Source: Gammaproteobacteria bacterium (GTDB lineage Bacteria > Pseudomonadota > Gammaproteobacteria > Pseudomonadales > Pseudohongiellaceae). Taken from it: a stretch of DNA of 35,684 nucleotides. Positions 3,811 to 35,684 of the stretch are shown one piece after another. The stretch is from the NCBI GenBank assembly GCA_030654835.1, contig JAURWS010000006.1:1-35684 (forward strand), read 5' to 3'. A model generated the notes under the pieces. It saw only the letters and a list, made by a program, of their open reading frames with translations, searched no databases and was not told the origin of the DNA. The position numbers and the translations under genes were made by a program. Position 1 is the first letter of the stretch. Every line of letters starts with the position of its first letter.

Positions 3811-4206
3811 CTAATTCTGTTTACCCAGCCAAGCCTGGCCTGCCGCTGTCAGGCGGTACTTTTGCAGGCGGCTGTTGGGTTTATCGGGGATGGTGTACTC
3901 GATAAAACCTTGTGCGAATGCGGGCTCAATATAGTGCTCCCGCACATGAGTACGATCTTTAAGTTTCATGCGATCCCTTATCTCAGCATTTGACAGCTGT
4001 CCTAAATCCACCAATAGCGCCAGCAGCGCGCTGACTGGTGGGGTGACTGGTGGGGTGACTTCCGGGGTAACCCCCTTCGGCCGCCTAACCACCACCAGAA
4101 ACTGGTTGCCAGACACTTCATCGATCAACTCAATGTTCGGCCAATTCAGCAGAGCGCGCGGAATGCCCTCTGTCTTACTCCTTCGCGCTGCTGGCAAGTT
4201 CACCAA
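3811..4206 (-). pseudogene. C-terminal stub of an AlbA_2/ATP-binding regulator
   Basis: 131 codons from a TTG that lies inside the end of the antitoxin gene. The sequence has a Pro/Val linker (TPEVTPPVTPPV) followed by a winged helix (LSNAEIRDRMKLKDR to IPDKPNSRLQKYRLT). This linker plus winged helix is the usual tail of large putative DNA-binding proteins with an N-terminal AlbA_2 domain and a HATPase-like middle. About 400 N-terminal residues are absent, and no ATG or GTG with a ribosome-binding site precedes the homologous part. An AAGGAG at the antitoxin stop might allow coupled translation, so a small functional DNA-binding protein is not excluded. Most simply it is a deletion scar. Confidence 0.6.
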
Positions 4207-29822: not shown

Positions 29823-30812
29823 TCACACGGTCAGTGCGCGCTTCACCAGATTGTCCATCAACGGCATCTTGAAGTGGTTGTAGTTCAAAGGCTTGGCACC
29901 CTGGCTAGCCAAAGACGCTACCGCATCAGCAGTTTCCTGGTTGCGGGCACGGCCTTGAATCGCCTGCTCTACAGAGGTCAGTCGACGTGGTGTGCACTCC
30001 ACCGCGCCAGCGACCATGCGTGACTCCTCAATCGTTCCGTTAGTGACTTTCATGGCAGCAGAGATGCTCACCAGTGCGAAGTCCCAGACATTGCGGTCGG
30101 CTACTTTCTCGAAGTAGAACTCTGCGTTCGCCCACTTGGCTGGAATACGAACAGCTGTGAGAACGTCACCGGCGCGCAGTACAGTAGTATGGCGGATGTC
30201 GACATCGGGTCCGATGAAGAAATCTTCCGCCGCCACGACGCGCTCGCCGCTGGCATTGCGAATCACCATCTGTGCTTCCAGAGCAACCAGTGCAGGAGCC
30301 GTATCGCTTGGTGAAACCGCTACACAGCGGCTGGCACCAAACAGGGCGTGCTCACGGTTCTGGCCTTCCGGCGTGTCGGCGTAGCAGAGATTACCCCCGG
30401 CGCGGTAGCAGTTCAGCCCGCGTCGGTAGTACCAGCAGCGTACGTCTTGAGCCACGTTGCCGCCCAGCGTGCCGATGTTGCGAATCTGCGGACTGGCTAC
30501 ACGGCCAGCTGCAGACGACAGCAGTGAATAGCGCTCTTTTACCAGCGCGTTGTTGGCCAGCTCGGTCAGCGTGACCAGGGCACCAATTTCGATACCGTCG
30601 GCCGTTTCGCTGATACCACGCATGGACTCAATGCCGTTCAGATCAATCAGGGCTTCCGGGCGCTTGGCGCGGTCCTTGATCCATCCGTACGTGTCTTGTC
30701 CACCGCCTACCAACCATCCCCTCTCGGCCAAAGTACCGGCAAGGCTTATTGCATCCTCCACCTGCACAGGCTGGTAGAGGCTCATTTCTGGCATATTGTC
30801 ATTTGATGGCAT
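29823..30812 (-). CDS. Molybdenum hydroxylase FAD subunit
   Basis: 329 aa, CoxM/PaoB-like. N-terminal FAD-binding domain: WLVGGGQDTYGWIKD (33-47), GALVTLTELANN and SPQIRNIGTLGGNVAQD (107-123). Four Cys follow (C126, C135, C143, C163) in an inserted loop, like the 4Fe-4S loop of 4-hydroxybenzoyl-CoA reductase beta and similar subunits, so an extra cluster is likely. The C-terminus is CO_deh_flav_C-like. Starts with GAGG that overlaps the stop of the upstream Moco gene (10-bp gap). It takes electrons from the Moco and Fe-S subunits; last gene of the operon. Confidence 0.9.
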   Translation of the reverse strand: MPSNDNMPEMSLYQPVQVEDAISLAGTLAERGWLVGGGQDTYGWIKDRAKRPEALIDLNGIESMRGISETADGIEIGALVTLTELANNALVKERYSLLSSAAGRVASPQIRNIGTLGGNVAQDVRCWYYRRGLNCYRAGGNLCYADTPEGQNREHALFGASRCVAVSPSDTAPALVALEAQMVIRNASGERVVAAEDFFIGPDVDIRHTTVLRAGDVLTAVRIPAKWANAEFYFEKVADRNVWDFALVSISAAMKVTNGTIEESRMVAGAVECTPRRLTSVEQAIQGRARNQETADAVASLASQGAKPLNYNHFKMPLMDNLVKRALTV

Positions 30813-30822
30813 TTTAAAAACC

Positions 30823-33270
30823 TCAGAATGTATTCGTTTTCAATTCGCCGGTATTGAAGCCATTCTGCGCGACATGATTCACGATCATGTCCGGAGTGAC
30901 CGGCGTGCGGTTGAACAAATGTCCATCAAGTGCGTCGGAGATGGCGCTCATCAGTGCTGCAGCACCACAGCCTTGTGCAGGCTCGCCGATACCACGGGCG
31001 CCCACTGGGCTCTGCGGATCGGGCATATCCATGCCAGCTGTCAGCATCTGTGCAGGCACGTCGAGGTATGTCGGCGGCTTGGACTGATAAAGCCCCACGT
31101 TGGCAGGCAGACCGTTTTGTGGGTCATAGACGTGGCGCTCGTAGCCTGCCATGCCGATACCCCACACACCGCCACCGTTCATGGCCTGACTCAGGCCCTG
31201 TGGGTGCACCACGGTGCCACACTCGGCAACAGCGGTGTAGTCGGTGATGTCGTACTTGCCTGTGTCCAGATCCATTTCGATCTCGACGAAAGCGATCGCG
31301 AAACCAGGAGCAGTGCCCTGCTTGGGCAGCGTGTCCTTGGCGACACCGATCAGACCGGTGCCTTTCATCGCTTCAACTGAACGCTTGGTAGTGGCGTTGA
31401 TGTCTTCCGGGTAAACCTGACCGCTATACTCGCCGCCCAGATCAATGGCTTTCTGCGCCGCTTCCGCAAACGTCAGACCTTTGGCCTGGTCGCTGGTCAG
31501 GAACACACGCTCACCGCCAACACTGTAATCGTCCGCAGCACCACCGAGATCTGCGGCTGCGATTTCCTTCAGTTTCCTGATGGCATCGAGCGCAGCAACG
31601 TGGCTGGAGCGAGTTTCGGTGAACATGGTGTTACTGCCACCCTGATAGGTACTGTGCGGCAGGTTCAGATCGCTGTTACCGTGTACCACGACGCAATTTT
31701 CCCAGCTGCACTGCAGAGCTTCAGCAGCCGCTCGCAGAACACCTGCGTAAGAGTAGGTGCCGAGGTTACCAACACCGGTATGCAGGTAGATCTTGCCGTC
31801 AGTGGCAATACGCAACAGACCGTCGTAACCATTGGCGCCGGCAGAGTGGAAACCCATGCCGAGACCGATTCCGCGTACTTTGTTGTTGGCCGTTACCTTG
31901 GGCTGAGCGACTCGCTCGTCCCAACGGAACATGGCGGCCGCCTTCTCGATAGCCTCCGGCATATAGGAGCTGGAGAGACCACCCTGACGGGGACCGAACT
32001 TCGCATCCGGACGTGGAGCATTGGCACGACGCATGGCAAGGCGGTCGAAACCACCCTCTCTGGCGGCCTTGTCCATGATTGGAGCAAGCACAGAAGCCAT
32101 TTCGTTCTGGCCCGGGCCACGCTGCGCACCGCGCGGAGTGGTATTGGTGTACAGAGCAACGCCACGGAAACGCATGGCTGTCGGCTGATACATAAGGGAG
32201 ATGTGTTCAGCTGAGGAGCCGGCACTACCGCCACCGCCTGAACCTGCATCGTTGATGATGATCACGTCAACTGCGCCGACCTTGCCGTCGTCCTTCAGAC
32301 CGACCTTGAGCCAGCCCTGCATACCAGAGCGAGCGGAGCCAATGTAGAACTCTTCTTCGCGGGTAATACGCATTTGCAGCGGACGGTTCAGTTTACGGGC
32401 GAATTTGCCGGTCACCGCCATTATCGGATACGGGAAAATCTTGGAGCCGAAGCCGCCACCAGTGTTTTCGTTGATGAAAACCAGGTTGGCAGGGTCGATC
32501 TCAAGCATCGCCGACAACTGTGCATGACCCACTGTGTGGCTCTGCAGCGAACCGTGGAAGTAGCACTTGCCGTTTTCCCAGAATGCCATGCCAGAGCGAG
32601 GCTCCAGGGAATGGTGCGGGTAACCGATAGTCACAAAGGGCTCTTCAACGATGGTCTTGCACTGAGCGAACTCTGCGGCAACATCACCATACGCCCACTC
32701 TTCACCGAAGGTGGCGCCCACTGGCTCGCGGCCATTGCGGAAGGCTGTGACCTGATCCAGAGACCACTTGATGCGACCAACGTCAGTACCGGAAGCCGTC
32801 GTACCAGCAGCAGCCGCGCCCGCAGCTGCGTTTCTGATCAGAGTATTACCGGTCGGATAGGGATCGGGGCCGCCTTCCAGCAGTGTATCCAGAGGGTCAG
32901 TCACGAAAGGACGACGCTCGAATACGATCTTGATCTTCTCGATCGCGTTTTCGGCGATCAGATCGCTTTCAGCAGCCACAGCCAGAATGGGCTGACCGAT
33001 GTAAGTGATGAAGTCTTTGGCCAGCGCGGGGTTGGCAGGAGGCAGTGAGGGCGGCAGATCGTCTGCGGTGAAGACACCGAGTACGCCTTCCATTGCCAGT
33101 GCCTCAGAGGCGTCAATACTGACAACACGACCACTTGGCAGCGGACTGGTCAGCAGACGGGCGAAGACCATGCCGTCTCTACGGAAATCTTCAGTGTAGC
33201 GAGCCGCACCAGTAACTTTGGCTTCTACATCCGGTGGAGTGAAATTTTTACCAATGTGCATATAGGTCAT
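30823..33270 (-). CDS. Molybdopterin (Moco) catalytic subunit, xanthine oxidase family
   Basis: 815 aa. Two-domain Ald_Xan_dh architecture: residues 10-120 (KVTGAARYTEDF start), GGGFGSK at 271-277 for Moco binding, TTPRGAQRGPGQNE as the second Moco loop, and GARGIGEPAQ near the end where Glu763 is the catalytic base. An Ala/Gly-rich insertion at about 145-190 is longer than usual. Substrate (aldehyde, heterocycle, purine) cannot be told. It has no own signal, so it is probably carried out with the Tat-bearing 2Fe-2S subunit. Overlaps the upstream gene by 4 bp (ATGA). No XdhC/PaoD-type chaperone gene is adjacent. Confidence 0.92.
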   Translation of the reverse strand: MTYMHIGKNFTPPDVEAKVTGAARYTEDFRRDGMVFARLLTSPLPSGRVVSIDASEALAMEGVLGVFTADDLPPSLPPANPALAKDFITYIGQPILAVAAESDLIAENAIEKIKIVFERRPFVTDPLDTLLEGGPDPYPTGNTLIRNAAAGAAAAGTTASGTDVGRIKWSLDQVTAFRNGREPVGATFGEEWAYGDVAAEFAQCKTIVEEPFVTIGYPHHSLEPRSGMAFWENGKCYFHGSLQSHTVGHAQLSAMLEIDPANLVFINENTGGGFGSKIFPYPIMAVTGKFARKLNRPLQMRITREEEFYIGSARSGMQGWLKVGLKDDGKVGAVDVIIINDAGSGGGGSAGSSAEHISLMYQPTAMRFRGVALYTNTTPRGAQRGPGQNEMASVLAPIMDKAAREGGFDRLAMRRANAPRPDAKFGPRQGGLSSSYMPEAIEKAAAMFRWDERVAQPKVTANNKVRGIGLGMGFHSAGANGYDGLLRIATDGKIYLHTGVGNLGTYSYAGVLRAAAEALQCSWENCVVVHGNSDLNLPHSTYQGGSNTMFTETRSSHVAALDAIRKLKEIAAADLGGAADDYSVGGERVFLTSDQAKGLTFAEAAQKAIDLGGEYSGQVYPEDINATTKRSVEAMKGTGLIGVAKDTLPKQGTAPGFAIAFVEIEMDLDTGKYDITDYTAVAECGTVVHPQGLSQAMNGGGVWGIGMAGYERHVYDPQNGLPANVGLYQSKPPTYLDVPAQMLTAGMDMPDPQSPVGARGIGEPAQGCGAAALMSAISDALDGHLFNRTPVTPDMIVNHVAQNGFNTGELKTNTF

Positions 33271-33869
33271 GACAGTTGCCCCGAGGCGCGCATTACGCCG
33301 TTCAGATAGTGATCATAAGCCCCGCAACGGCAGAGGTTTCCTGACATTGCCTCGCGTGCCTGCTGGCGTGTTGGTTTCGGATTGGCTTTCAGCAGCGCCA
33401 CAGCAGACATGACCTGACCTGAAGTACAGAAACCGCACGCTGGACTGAGCTCCTGTATGAATGCCGCCTGCACCGCGTGCAGGGTACCGTCTTCAGCGCG
33501 CAGCCCTTCTACTGTCAGCACTGCGCGATCCTTGACGTTATGCGTCAGGGTAGAACAGGAATAGTAGTTGACGTCGTCGATCAACACGGTACACGCGCCG
33601 CATTCGCCACGGTTGCAAGCAACCTTGGTGCCGGTCAGACCGAGCTTGTATCGAAGAGTGTGCGCAAGAGTTTCTTGCGGGAGTACGTCAACGCGCCGCA
33701 CGCGGCCATTGACGTTGATGGATACCAGGCGCTCTACGCCGCCTGCCGGATTTGATGCGGCAGAAGCCATATACCATCCCGCGCCGCTGCTGGCGGCAGC
33801 GGCAGAGAAGATAACGCTCTTGATGAATCGTCTGCGTGTTAGGGTGATGTTCACTTTGTTGGGCCCCAT
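33267..33869 (-). CDS. 2Fe-2S subunit with Tat signal
   Basis: 200 aa, CoxS/PaoA-like. Twin-arginine signal TRRRFIKSV (residues 11-19) followed by an Ala-rich hydrophobic stretch to about 39. Fe-S I: C85, C90, C93, C105 (plant-ferredoxin type). Fe-S II: C145, C148, C180, C182. So both clusters are intact. It is the first gene of the operon S-L-M and would export the folded complex to the periplasm, as in E. coli PaoABC. Start ATG at 33869 has only a weak ribosome-binding site. Confidence 0.92.
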   Translation of the reverse strand: MGPNKVNITLTRRRFIKSVIFSAAAASSGAGWYMASAASNPAGGVERLVSINVNGRVRRVDVLPQETLAHTLRYKLGLTGTKVACNRGECGACTVLIDDVNYYSCSTLTHNVKDRAVLTVEGLRAEDGTLHAVQAAFIQELSPACGFCTSGQVMSAVALLKANPKPTRQQAREAMSGNLCRCGAYDHYLNGVMRASGQLS

Positions 33870-34121: not shown

Positions 34122-35252
34122 CTAGCGCTGAAGTTGCTTCAGCATCGACATATTGCCATCAAACAATTCATCAAGTTTTGCCTTGATTTCATGGTTGCAG
34201 CAATCCTTCGGCGGGGGTTTTTGCGAGAAATCCTGCGAGACCTCCTGTGAGGTGCTCTGTTGCTCTCGCAACTTTGCCGCAAGAACAGGCATTCGCAAGA
34301 AGAACTCGGCAAGAGTCTCGCTGCCAGCGGTGTTGGCAGCCATTCCCACGCCCAGGCGCTCCAGACATAACGCATTCAGCTTCTGCTCAAACTGCCCGTG
34401 CATGGGAAACGCCAGATAGGGCTTCTGCAAATGCATCGCCTCACTGATCAGCGTGAATCCGGCCGTGGCGATCACCGACTGACAGGCAGCCAGATCCTGC
34501 AGAAACCCGTCCGTACTGAATTCGCGATACTCCAGATTGGTGGCGCCGTCTTGATCGCTGCTTCCGTGATCGTTGTATCCGTAAACAACAAAGCGGTGTG
34601 AGGGGAACTGCTTGAGAGTCGCAACAAGAGAATCAAACCGGCCCGTCATATAGACCAAGTGAAAATTCCCCGGCGATGTCTGCAGCGAACACACTTCCCG
34701 GCGCAGAATCGGAGCAAACAAAAAGGTTCTGTCATTGGAGACCTCCCCGCGAAAGAAAGTGATTGCCAATGCCACATCCGGCTCGGGAATCATCAGGCGA
34801 ATGATAGTCCGGGTCTGCCATTGCTCGAATCGCAACCAACCTGGCACATCGAATTTCATATAGCGCATGCGATGCTGATTATCCAGACTGATCAGTGGCA
34901 ACTTGTGTATTCGCGCCAGCCAGGCTGTTGACGGCTCAAAATCCGTAATCACACAATCGGGACAAAAGCCTGCAAACAGCGCGCGCAGTTCACGAAGACG
35001 CTGCCACGCACGGCGACCTCTGCGCAAATTGTCCCAGATCGTGCCCAATGCGCTCACACGATTGTTACGACTGATAATGCGCAGACCTTCCACCTGCAGA
35101 CAATCGAAATCCGCAGCCAGATTTCGATAGCCCCGATCGTAAGATACGATCTTTACCTCGTGGCCACGCTCTTGCAGATGTCGCACCATCTCTCTGGCGC
35201 GCGATGAATGCCCCGAACCCTCGCCCGAGACTCCGTAAATGATTCTGCTCAT
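34122..35252 (-). CDS. MJ1255/VC2487-type glycosyltransferase
   Basis: 376 aa from the ATG at 35252 (AGGAGG 11 nt upstream; 27 further codons upstream are rejected). N-terminus MSRIIYGVSGEGSGHSSRAR is the nucleotide-sugar/acceptor loop of this GT28-like group; CVITDFEPSTAWLA closes the N domain. C-terminal half has VYMTGRFD, then CQSVIATAGFTLISEAMHL, then KPYLAFPMHGQFEQ, the usual donor-binding block of the GT-B fold. A Ser/Gln/Pro/Cys-rich tail of about 35 residues ends the protein. Function inferred: glycosylation of a lipid. It is divergent from a PlcP-like phosphoesterase with PHO-box-like sites between them, so a glycolipid made on phosphate starvation is a fair guess. Confidence 0.8.
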   Translation of the reverse strand: MSRIIYGVSGEGSGHSSRAREMVRHLQERGHEVKIVSYDRGYRNLAADFDCLQVEGLRIISRNNRVSALGTIWDNLRRGRRAWQRLRELRALFAGFCPDCVITDFEPSTAWLARIHKLPLISLDNQHRMRYMKFDVPGWLRFEQWQTRTIIRLMIPEPDVALAITFFRGEVSNDRTFLFAPILRREVCSLQTSPGNFHLVYMTGRFDSLVATLKQFPSHRFVVYGYNDHGSSDQDGATNLEYREFSTDGFLQDLAACQSVIATAGFTLISEAMHLQKPYLAFPMHGQFEQKLNALCLERLGVGMAANTAGSETLAEFFLRMPVLAAKLREQQSTSQEVSQDFSQKPPPKDCCNHEIKAKLDELFDGNMSMLKQLQR

Positions 35253-35284
35253 TGCGGTACACGCCTCCTGCCTTATGCTCGCAA

Positions 35285-35307
35285 ATATTAGCGAGCAATT
35301 GTGACAG
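35285..35307 (-). promoter_or_regulatory. Possible PhoB promoter of glycosyltransferase gene
   Basis: On the minus strand CTGTCAC (35307-35301), which is a perfect PHO-box half, is followed after 10 bp by TAATAT (35290-35285), a good -10. That is the spacing of class PhoB promoters. Only one clear half site is seen on this side, so support is modest. Confidence 0.45.
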
Positions 35308-35326
35308 TTCGCGTCATGCTGTTGCG

Positions 35327-35387
35327 CGGTCACACGACCGCCATCAGAGTGTCATGCGGCCGTCATAAGCGACGGTTACCTTATGCT
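35327..35387 (+). promoter_or_regulatory. Four-unit PHO-box-like array and -10
   Basis: Four 7-mers recur every 11 bp: CGGTCAC (35327), CCGCCAT (35338), GTGTCAT (35349), CCGTCAT (35360), each separated by 4 bp. The consensus PhoB half site is CTGTCAT with 11-bp period. TATGCT at 35382-35387 gives a -10 15 bp after the array, as in PhoB-activated promoters that lack a -35. It drives the truncated PlcP-like gene at 35415 and may serve the divergent gene too. Confidence 0.65.
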
Positions 35388-35414
35388 GCAAATCTGCAAC
35401 CATGAGGTCATGTA

Positions 35415-35549
35415 ATGATTGCTGAAAAGCCCTCGCGCAAACTGAAATACCGCAGCATTTTCATCTCCGACGTGCACCTTGGCTTCCGAGGCTGCCAGGC
35501 AGAATTCCTCCTCAACTTTCTGCACTCCACCAAATCTGATTACCTCTAG
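35415..35549 (+). pseudogene. PlcP-like metallophosphoesterase, interrupted
   Basis: Starts at ATG 35415 (GAGG 7 nt upstream). 44 codons: the first calcineurin-type motif ISDVHLGFRGCQAEF (Asp19, His21 metal ligands) is followed by LLNFLHSTKSDYL, where homologues continue with the YLVGDIID motif. Here a TAG stop comes instead and IS-like sequence begins at 35549/35550. The SDVHLG-x-RGC wording is that of the PlcP/LpxH-like branch; PlcP is a phosphate-starvation phospholipase C. The remaining gene, if present, lies beyond the element outside the window. Confidence 0.75.
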
Positions 35550-35684
35550 GGCACCTCCGGAAATTAACCAATTCCTGTAAACTATCGCAAAATCTTTACA
35601 CATGCGAGTGACTCATGGCCCACCCCGGATTTTTCGATCTTGATGATCGCTTCAAGAAGCTGGATGAACGAGATGCTTTGCTGC
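35550..35684 (+). mobile_element. Left end of an IS5-like insertion sequence
   Basis: Sequence changes abruptly after CTAG (35546-35549): GGCACCTCCGGAAATTAACC starts here, looking like a terminal inverted repeat. 65 bp further a transposase starts. CTAG fits the YTAR target of classical IS5 elements, but boundary and target duplication cannot be proven because the right end is outside the window. Confidence 0.65.
35615..35684 (+). CDS. IS5-family transposase, start only
   Basis: 23 codons from ATG 35615 to the window end: MAHPGFFDLDDRFKKLDERD, a characteristic start of IS5-family DDE transposases (commonly ...PGFFDLDDRY..L). The catalytic part lies outside. The frame has no stop in the visible part. 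Confidence 0.7.
   Translation, partial: MAHPGFFDLDDRFKKLDERDALL

Follow-up and report, generated by a model that had tools for sequence, protein, structure and literature searches.

We consider it likely that the window carries a Pho-controlled lipid-remodelling module made of a PlcP phosphoesterase and a PF13528 glycosyltransferase, the latter standing in the place of Agt, and that the PlcP half is broken in this genome. The window, the whole stretch of DNA analyzed here, is the entire contig C8 (35,684 bp) of the 3.84-Mb genome G000, which is assembled in 60 contigs. The glycosyltransferase gene and plcP are divergent, with start codons 162 bp apart (Table 1), and we propose that this gap would hold two back-to-back PhoB-dependent promoters. 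The sequence-only reading had suggested a variant of the PlcP lipid-swap module. That suggestion is partly supported: the genus shows Pho-type control of the two genes and PlcP is linked with the transferase, but plcP is interrupted in this genome. The rest of the window includes, between 5024 and 33869, a GSDH dehydrogenase, a DUF1800/DUF1501 pair, a PQQ dehydrogenase, two ABC transporters, a Sel1-AAA protein and a multicopper oxidase. At 29823-33869, a 2Fe-2S subunit adjoins a molybdenum dehydrogenase-like operon.

Table 1. Features of the divergent plcP/transferase locus, in window coordinates
Feature	Position	Strand	Remark
PF13528 glycosyltransferase, 376 aa, intact	34122..35252	-	Pfam and TIGR00661 profiles; AlphaFold2 model, GT-B predicted
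Transferase promoter -10 TAATAT, 10 bases after half-site	35285..35290	-	Rank 4 in window (half-site plus -10 model)
PhoB-type half-site CTGTCAC, transferase promoter	35301..35307	-	Invariant in four nearest genomes
PHO array unit 1 CGGTCAC	35327..35333	+	
PHO array unit 2 CCGCCAT	35338..35344	+	
PHO array unit 3 GTGTCAT	35349..35355	+	Units 3-4 plus -10 rank 1 of 71,302 positions
PHO array unit 4 CCGTCAT	35360..35366	+	
plcP promoter -10 TACCTT, 10 bases after unit 4	35377..35382	+	TA...T at same place in all four nearest genomes
PlcP-like phosphoesterase 5' remnant, 44 codons	35415..35549	+	Remaining 226 codons on G000:C51 from base 143
Target-site duplication TCTA, 4 bp	35545..35548	.	Second copy at other IS junction, C51
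IS5-type left end, terminal repeat GGGCACCTCCGGAAAT, transposase start 35615	35549..35684	+	Contig ends inside

Upstream of plcP, four PhoB-like 7-mers with an 11-bp period are located exactly where the sequence-only reading had placed them. To score them, we used a half-site matrix of 21 distinct sites in the genus, taken from the promoters of pstS (11 sites from 11 genomes) and phoB (10 distinct sites from 12 of 13 loci). Locus L088 was left out of the phoB sites because it has no site that fits the pattern. The pstS set leaves out the distant paralogue loci L067-L069, which have no site, and G011, in which the start is off the stretch. The pstS and phoB promoters share an 11-bp period and N10 spacing to the -10. 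The plcP promoter resembles them in both, which agrees with the earlier claim that its -10 is placed as in PhoB promoters. They contain two stronger units, whereas the plcP promoter contains four that are individually weaker. A scan of the window with the matrix placed units 3-4 plus the -10 at the top with 9.2 bits. This is far below the 24-35 bits of the training sites, indicating that the site is degenerate.

The four units together score 20.5, compared to 3.6 for the window's second-best place at 11-bp spacing that does not overlap them. At other spacings, the best places in the window reach 3.0 to 7.1 (8, 10, 12, 13 and 14 bp) and 14.7 (9 bp). Among spacings of 8-14 bp, 11 bp is the best in the plcP promoter and likewise in the whole window. 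A score of 12 is reached at 4 of 1,222,510 background positions, all within about 120 bp upstream of transferases; these positions come from loci around transferases of other genomes and are hence not random DNA. The four-unit model was picked after the promoters had been inspected, and the half-site matrix is independent of that inspection. Based on the matrix rank and the spacing and background controls, a chance repeat was rejected as the origin of the array. A sigma-70 promoter scan found no match at the array. The exact pattern TGTCAC-N4-TGTCAC, which has a 10-bp period, matches once in the genome. The genome contains a PhoB gene (G000:C30:57498-58184) above the TIGR02154 cut-off, and PhoB scores above this cut-off in 13 of the 14 genus genomes. 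On the same contig, a PHO-type site with 11-bp half-sites is found before a porin-like ORF beside phoB-pst (L107, ~4100-4160, minus strand).

The array is conserved among relatives. In the three nearest genomes, the core CA of every unit is invariant. A four-unit array precedes plcP at all 15 loci from the genus (13), G023 and G032, with a score that no more than 1 of 300 shuffles attains at each. These 15 are part of 43 plcP upstream regions scored, many of which are from close relatives. The 11-bp spacing is the best of seven in 33 of the 43; in 31, no more than 1 of 300 shuffles attains the four-unit score, and the remaining 12 are unconvincing. This set leaves out L221 (uncertain start), L225 and L237 (duplicating the genes of L055 and L054) and L235 and L236 (no plcP start). 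The array is also found before plcP on a P. aeruginosa plasmid and in the clusters of family f24. When a two-unit model is used, L042, L048 and L049 are weak (7-12 of 300 shuffles) among 13 plcP regions of the genus or Pseudohongiella type.

Two side observations concern the array and the region following it. In the Thermodesulfovibrionia loci L145 (~3437) and L146 (~3881), a strong four-unit 11-bp array is located on the minus strand, and the adjacent transferase is on the opposite strand; in L146 the array faces a 204-aa ORF without an assigned function. In the window, the plcP leader at 35390-35430 (GCAAATCTGCAACCATGAGG..CATG.AATGATTGCTGAAAA) hardly differs between four genomes despite their diverged promoters; it contains the likely ribosome site, and a frame of 7 codons in it overlaps the start.

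Our analysis also revealed a second PhoB-type promoter-like site, CTGTCAC-N10-TAATAT on the minus strand, which faces the transferase and was absent from the earlier reading. Its spacing from half-site to -10 equals that in the pstS and phoB promoters of the genus. In the three nearest relatives its -10 reads TATTAT, TAGAAT and TAAAAT, with the spacing unchanged. This promoter has one good half-site, and a clear second one is present in some relatives only. The motif NTGTCAY occurs upstream of all 15 transferase orthologues with more than 50% identity, including those with plcP located elsewhere. In 13 of these 15, no more than 3 of 300 shuffles attain the score of the half-site plus -10; L011 (23/300) and L012 (18/300) have a poor -10 but two half-sites each. 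L018 has no upstream sequence and was left out of this test. None of 14 distant homologues (L019-L032) is significant for the same model. In a named collection, of which 79 of 80 loci have enough upstream sequence, NTGTMAY-N10-YAnnnT is found within 200 bp upstream of 16/16 clade orthologues (L113 and L115 were put in the clade by sequence alone) and of 1/63 others. Among control blocks, which include coding sequence, 19 of 2,795 (0.7%) contain it. Pho regulation of both genes is thus well supported at the level of sequence.

The phosphoesterase was described in the sequence-only reading as PlcP-like. This type assignment is upheld, and the gene in the window is a remnant cut by an insertion sequence (IS). 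Its intact orthologue in G012 has 271 residues. The orthologue scores 46 bits against the LpxH model, for which the cut-off is 134, and another gene in the genome encodes LpxH itself (276 bits); LpxH was therefore rejected as its identity. The orthologue shares 48% identity with a PlcP-type protein encoded on a P. aeruginosa plasmid, where a GT4-type gene follows. We equate this plasmid protein with PA3219 by the neighboring GT4-type gene, not by accession. In 16 aligned PlcP sequences (alignment A3), D19, H21, D49, N89-H90, H125, H209 and H211 are invariant, and we take these residues to be metal-binding, as in the calcineurin-like family. The orthologue is 59% identical to a Thiodictyon homologue, whose gene is divergent from a transferase and has no array; the neighbor there is 31% identical to an Agt1-type protein. 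On a Parabacteroides plasmid, a PlcP-like gene (40% identity) has a 4-bp overlap with the gene of a distant transferase homologue (22%).

The PlcP frame in the window ends after 44 codons at the start of GGGCACCTCCGGAAAT. Contig C51 opens with an inverted copy of GGGCACCTCCGGAAAT followed by the rest of plcP, and TCTA flanks both sides. The element is presumably of the IS5 type; terminal repeats, a 4-bp duplication and a DDE transposase are present. Its left end has eight matches with 100% identity in the genome, in the window and on contigs C5, C10, C11, C20, C24, C41 and C49. Seven of the eight are located at contig ends, suggesting that the element probably explains several of the assembly breaks. 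The full copy on C49 measures 1,245 bp, and its transposase, 343 aa long, has DDE_Tnp_1 and DUF772 domains; matching 4-bp flanks were not found for this copy. D19 and H21 are in the C8 piece of PlcP, whereas D49, N89-H90, H125, H209 and H211 are in the C51 piece. Because the insertion parts the D-x-H motif from the remaining conserved residues, the PlcP half is very probably dead, and the step it would catalyze very probably lost in this strain. The module in this genome is therefore probably not working.

The transferase is intact. It scores 355.6 bits against PF13528 (Glyco_trans_1_3), for which the gathering cut-off is 25. Against TIGR00661, the MJ1255/VC2487 family, it matches positions 1-307 of 321 (E = 2.5e-53) with 181.4 bits, below the cut-off of 195.9, which places it just outside the curated subfamily. 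The earlier assignment to the MJ1255/VC2487 type thus falls just short of the curated cut-off. The AlphaFold2 model of the transferase has a mean pLDDT of 88.5, and among PDB structures it comes nearest to GT1-kind UDP-glycosyltransferases (TM-score about 0.65); no lipid-acceptor enzyme is among the matches listed. Both the fold search and a sequence search of solved structures returned mostly GT1-kind UDP-glycosyltransferases, and neither indicates the acceptor. Compared with one P. aeruginosa Agt1-type protein, the transferase shows no significant similarity (best E = 0.04). In the parts of PMC11856585 available to us, a ChIP peak of ChiS is reported upstream of VC2487 of Vibrio cholerae; this peak beside the family member points to chitin. 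We found no paper on the enzymology of VC2487, MJ1255, PF13528 or TIGR00661 in the open-licence literature searched. One locus with a transferase 54% identical to that in the window, L119, is on a contig titled as a Klebsiella pneumoniae MAG, probably a mislabelled record.

How far are the two genes linked elsewhere? Immediate divergent adjacency is found only in G000, G012, G010 and G009, and in G009 plcP runs off the contig. At the 12 other orthologue loci, L007-L018, no plcP was found in flanks reaching up to 1.5 kb (for L018, the downstream flank). In 7 of the 8 mapped loci among these, the divergent neighbor of the transferase is what we take to be xseB-ispA-like. In the named collection, where flanks of up to 4 kb were covered, plcP is found at 2 of 80 transferase loci, with a 37-residue fragment in L110 falling below the size limit used. 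A wide adjacency of plcP to close transferases was therefore rejected.

The genes co-occur well beyond this adjacency. Among 36 genomes of the family, 23 have both genes, 11 neither, two the transferase only and none PlcP only, so that 34 of 36 are concordant. G009 is counted as having both on the basis of a fragment; the two genomes with the transferase only are G006, which is 76% complete, and G028, where the hit is at a contig end. Among 244 genomes of the order, the transferase is found in 92, PlcP in 91, both in 58 and neither in 119 (Fisher p = 1.5e-10, with kinship ignored). This count keeps 92 of 95 genomes with a transferase match and 91 of 160 with a PlcP match, dropping 3 at E >1e-4 and 69 at E >1e-12, respectively. 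The order-level transferases are homologues of the window protein, mostly with about 30% identity; those checked with Pfam, the window protein and that of L226 (f24), both belong to PF13528. In 15 of the 58 genomes with both, the two genes are within 6 kb of each other, in six families, with 8 of the 15 in f24. Neither outcome that would have refuted the sequence-only reading was observed: the 11-bp sites are conserved in relatives, and the two genes recur together in other genomes, linked statistically and physically. Immediate divergent pairing is confined to the four genomes.

PlcP genomes tend to have either this transferase or Agt. Of the 91 genomes with PlcP, 58 have the transferase and 33 lack it; an Agt-like GT4 protein (E ≤1e-30, scored from the best 8 first-look candidates per genome) is found in 1 of the former and 23 of the latter (p = 9e-13). 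At a stricter cut-off of 1e-80, the numbers are 1 of 58 and 11 of 33. When families are collapsed by majority, 15 have the transferase, 8 Agt, 3 neither and none both (p = 1e-4); phylogeny is handled in these p values by the family collapse only. Collapsed by genus, 29 have the transferase, 11 Agt, 4 neither and none both. Genus g16 contains two genomes with the transferase and four with the Agt type. Agt-like matches also occur apart from PlcP, which is missing in 20 of the 44 genomes that have one. Two other candidates for the genus of the window were rejected. For a close Agt homologue elsewhere in the genus, weak partial matches (E ≤0.001) were found in 10 of 14 genus genomes, the best at 9.1e-10. 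For a betaine-lipid route, BtaA (PF11899) was found in 0 of 14.

The gene neighborhoods of the linked clusters add further lipid genes. Of the 14 linked clusters L221-L234, 10 have a PAP2-motif ORF adjoining the transferase or its position; the one in L225 is confirmed by Pfam. A protein of about 570 residues is located beside plcP in the clusters of f24 and f30. The one in L226 has Acyltransf_2 and GNAT domains, presumably the architecture of OlsF; the others are judged OlsF-like by the start of their sequence only. An OlsF-like sequence start is also found beside PAP2 in L225 (f18). PHO-like pairs precede PAP2 in 10 of 11 cases (≤11/500 mononucleotide shuffles) and cluster plcP in 8 of 13 (≤3/500 shuffles). 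Directly before cluster transferases they were found in 0 of 7 (best 15/500 shuffles). Loci L226-L234, from f24 and other families, hold islands of plcP, the OlsF-like acyltransferase/GNAT gene, PAP2 and a PF13528-type transferase, possibly a phosphorus-free lipid island.

These results suggest a model for the module in its intact form. Under low phosphate, PhoB would bind the four-unit array and turn on plcP, and would bind the minus-strand CTGTCAC and turn on the PF13528 glycosyltransferase. PlcP would strip the head groups from phospholipids to give diacylglycerol, to which the transferase would add a sugar, yielding a phosphorus-free membrane glycolipid. In this scheme the PF13528 enzyme would hold the position of the GT4-type Agt in the plcP-agt pathway. 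We infer the binding of PhoB, diacylglycerol as the acceptor, the sugar and the lipid swap itself. With less assurance, we lean towards a broader view, in which most PlcP-bearing families of the order (15 of 26 sampled) have a PF13528 transferase as the missing second enzyme in PlcP remodelling. It would be an independently recruited diacylglycerol glycosyltransferase that excludes Agt and in several families shares an island with plcP, PAP2 and a gene for an OlsF-like ornithine-lipid synthase, and the four-unit PHO array at plcP would be ancestral.

The alternatives differ in which part of this model they dispute. Both genes could belong to the Pho regulon and serve separate pathways, with PlcP recycling diacylglycerol and phosphate and the transferase decorating LPS core, ornithine lipid or an undecaprenyl-linked glycan. 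The closest solved GT-B folds are not diacylglycerol enzymes, and the open-licence literature searched gave no enzymology for the family, both of which fit this alternative. So do the 34 of 92 transferase-bearing genomes of the order that have no PlcP, which indicate that the transferase family also works outside the PlcP pathway; with most homologues only about 30% identical to the window protein, a single function shared across the order is an assumption. The near-exclusion of Agt-like GT4 proteins in PlcP genomes, which holds at the family level too, speaks against separate pathways. The linkage within 6 kb in 15 of 58 genomes, the adjoining PAP2 and OlsF-like genes and a genus without a close Agt homologue or BtaA also argue for a common pathway, and we regard separate ones as rather unlikely.

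Much less probable is that the locus is a decaying remnant, in which plcP is dead, the transferase may have no substrate and nothing but the recency of the insertion accounts for the survival of the array. The IS with its 4-bp duplication, the parted conserved motifs and the identical IS ends elsewhere in the genome favor this, whereas neither the transferase nor either promoter is disrupted. If the assembly comes from a mixed population, intact copies of plcP could also be hidden. Moreover, decay describes this strain and does not compete with an ancestral function of the module. We give marginally less weight still to the possibility of an ordinary divergent pair in which only plcP is controlled through the array and the minus-strand site arose by coincidence. 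The single strong half-site on the transferase side and the divergent arrangement in only four genomes are compatible with it. However, the half-site is at a fixed distance from a -10 in 15/15 orthologues (13 of them significant), also where plcP is elsewhere, and the pattern is present in 16/16 clade orthologues compared to 0.7% of control blocks. The preferred reading therefore remains a PlcP/PF13528 module under Pho control.

Parts of this module are familiar. In the portions of PMC4796936, PMC8528852 and PMC9239053 available to us, the plcP-agt remodelling pathway and PHO boxes before plcP are already published, with examples in Phaeobacter MED193, SAR11, P. aeruginosa (PA3219/PA3218) and Methylosinus. 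Our locus shares with this pathway a PlcP-type phosphoesterase, PHO boxes and an adjacent glycosyltransferase. Unlike in it, the transferase belongs to PF13528 and not to the GT4-type Agt, the genes are divergent and not co-directional, and plcP is interrupted. Transferases other than Agt beside plcP are described in the same portions of PMC4796936 (types 3 and 5) and PMC9239053 (type Ia methanotrophs), and our locus is similar in having a different transferase in place of Agt. Those partners are described as related to other known diacylglycerol glycosyltransferases (a di-/triglycosyl-diacylglycerol synthase and a Bacillus-type enzyme), and the same portions make no mention of PF13528. In line with the sequence-only reading, which had seen no MJ1255/VC2487-type transferase described in this role, the open-licence papers searched did not name the PF13528 family in PlcP or lipid remodelling.

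For genomes that have plcP and no agt, the phosphorus-free lipid is not easily assigned at present. If PF13528 transferases are the partner of PlcP, glycolipid remodelling would become predictable in many more Gammaproteobacteria, and a poorly described transferase family would gain a substrate. The near-exclusion between Agt and PF13528 would then be a clear case of enzyme replacement in a phosphate-saving pathway.
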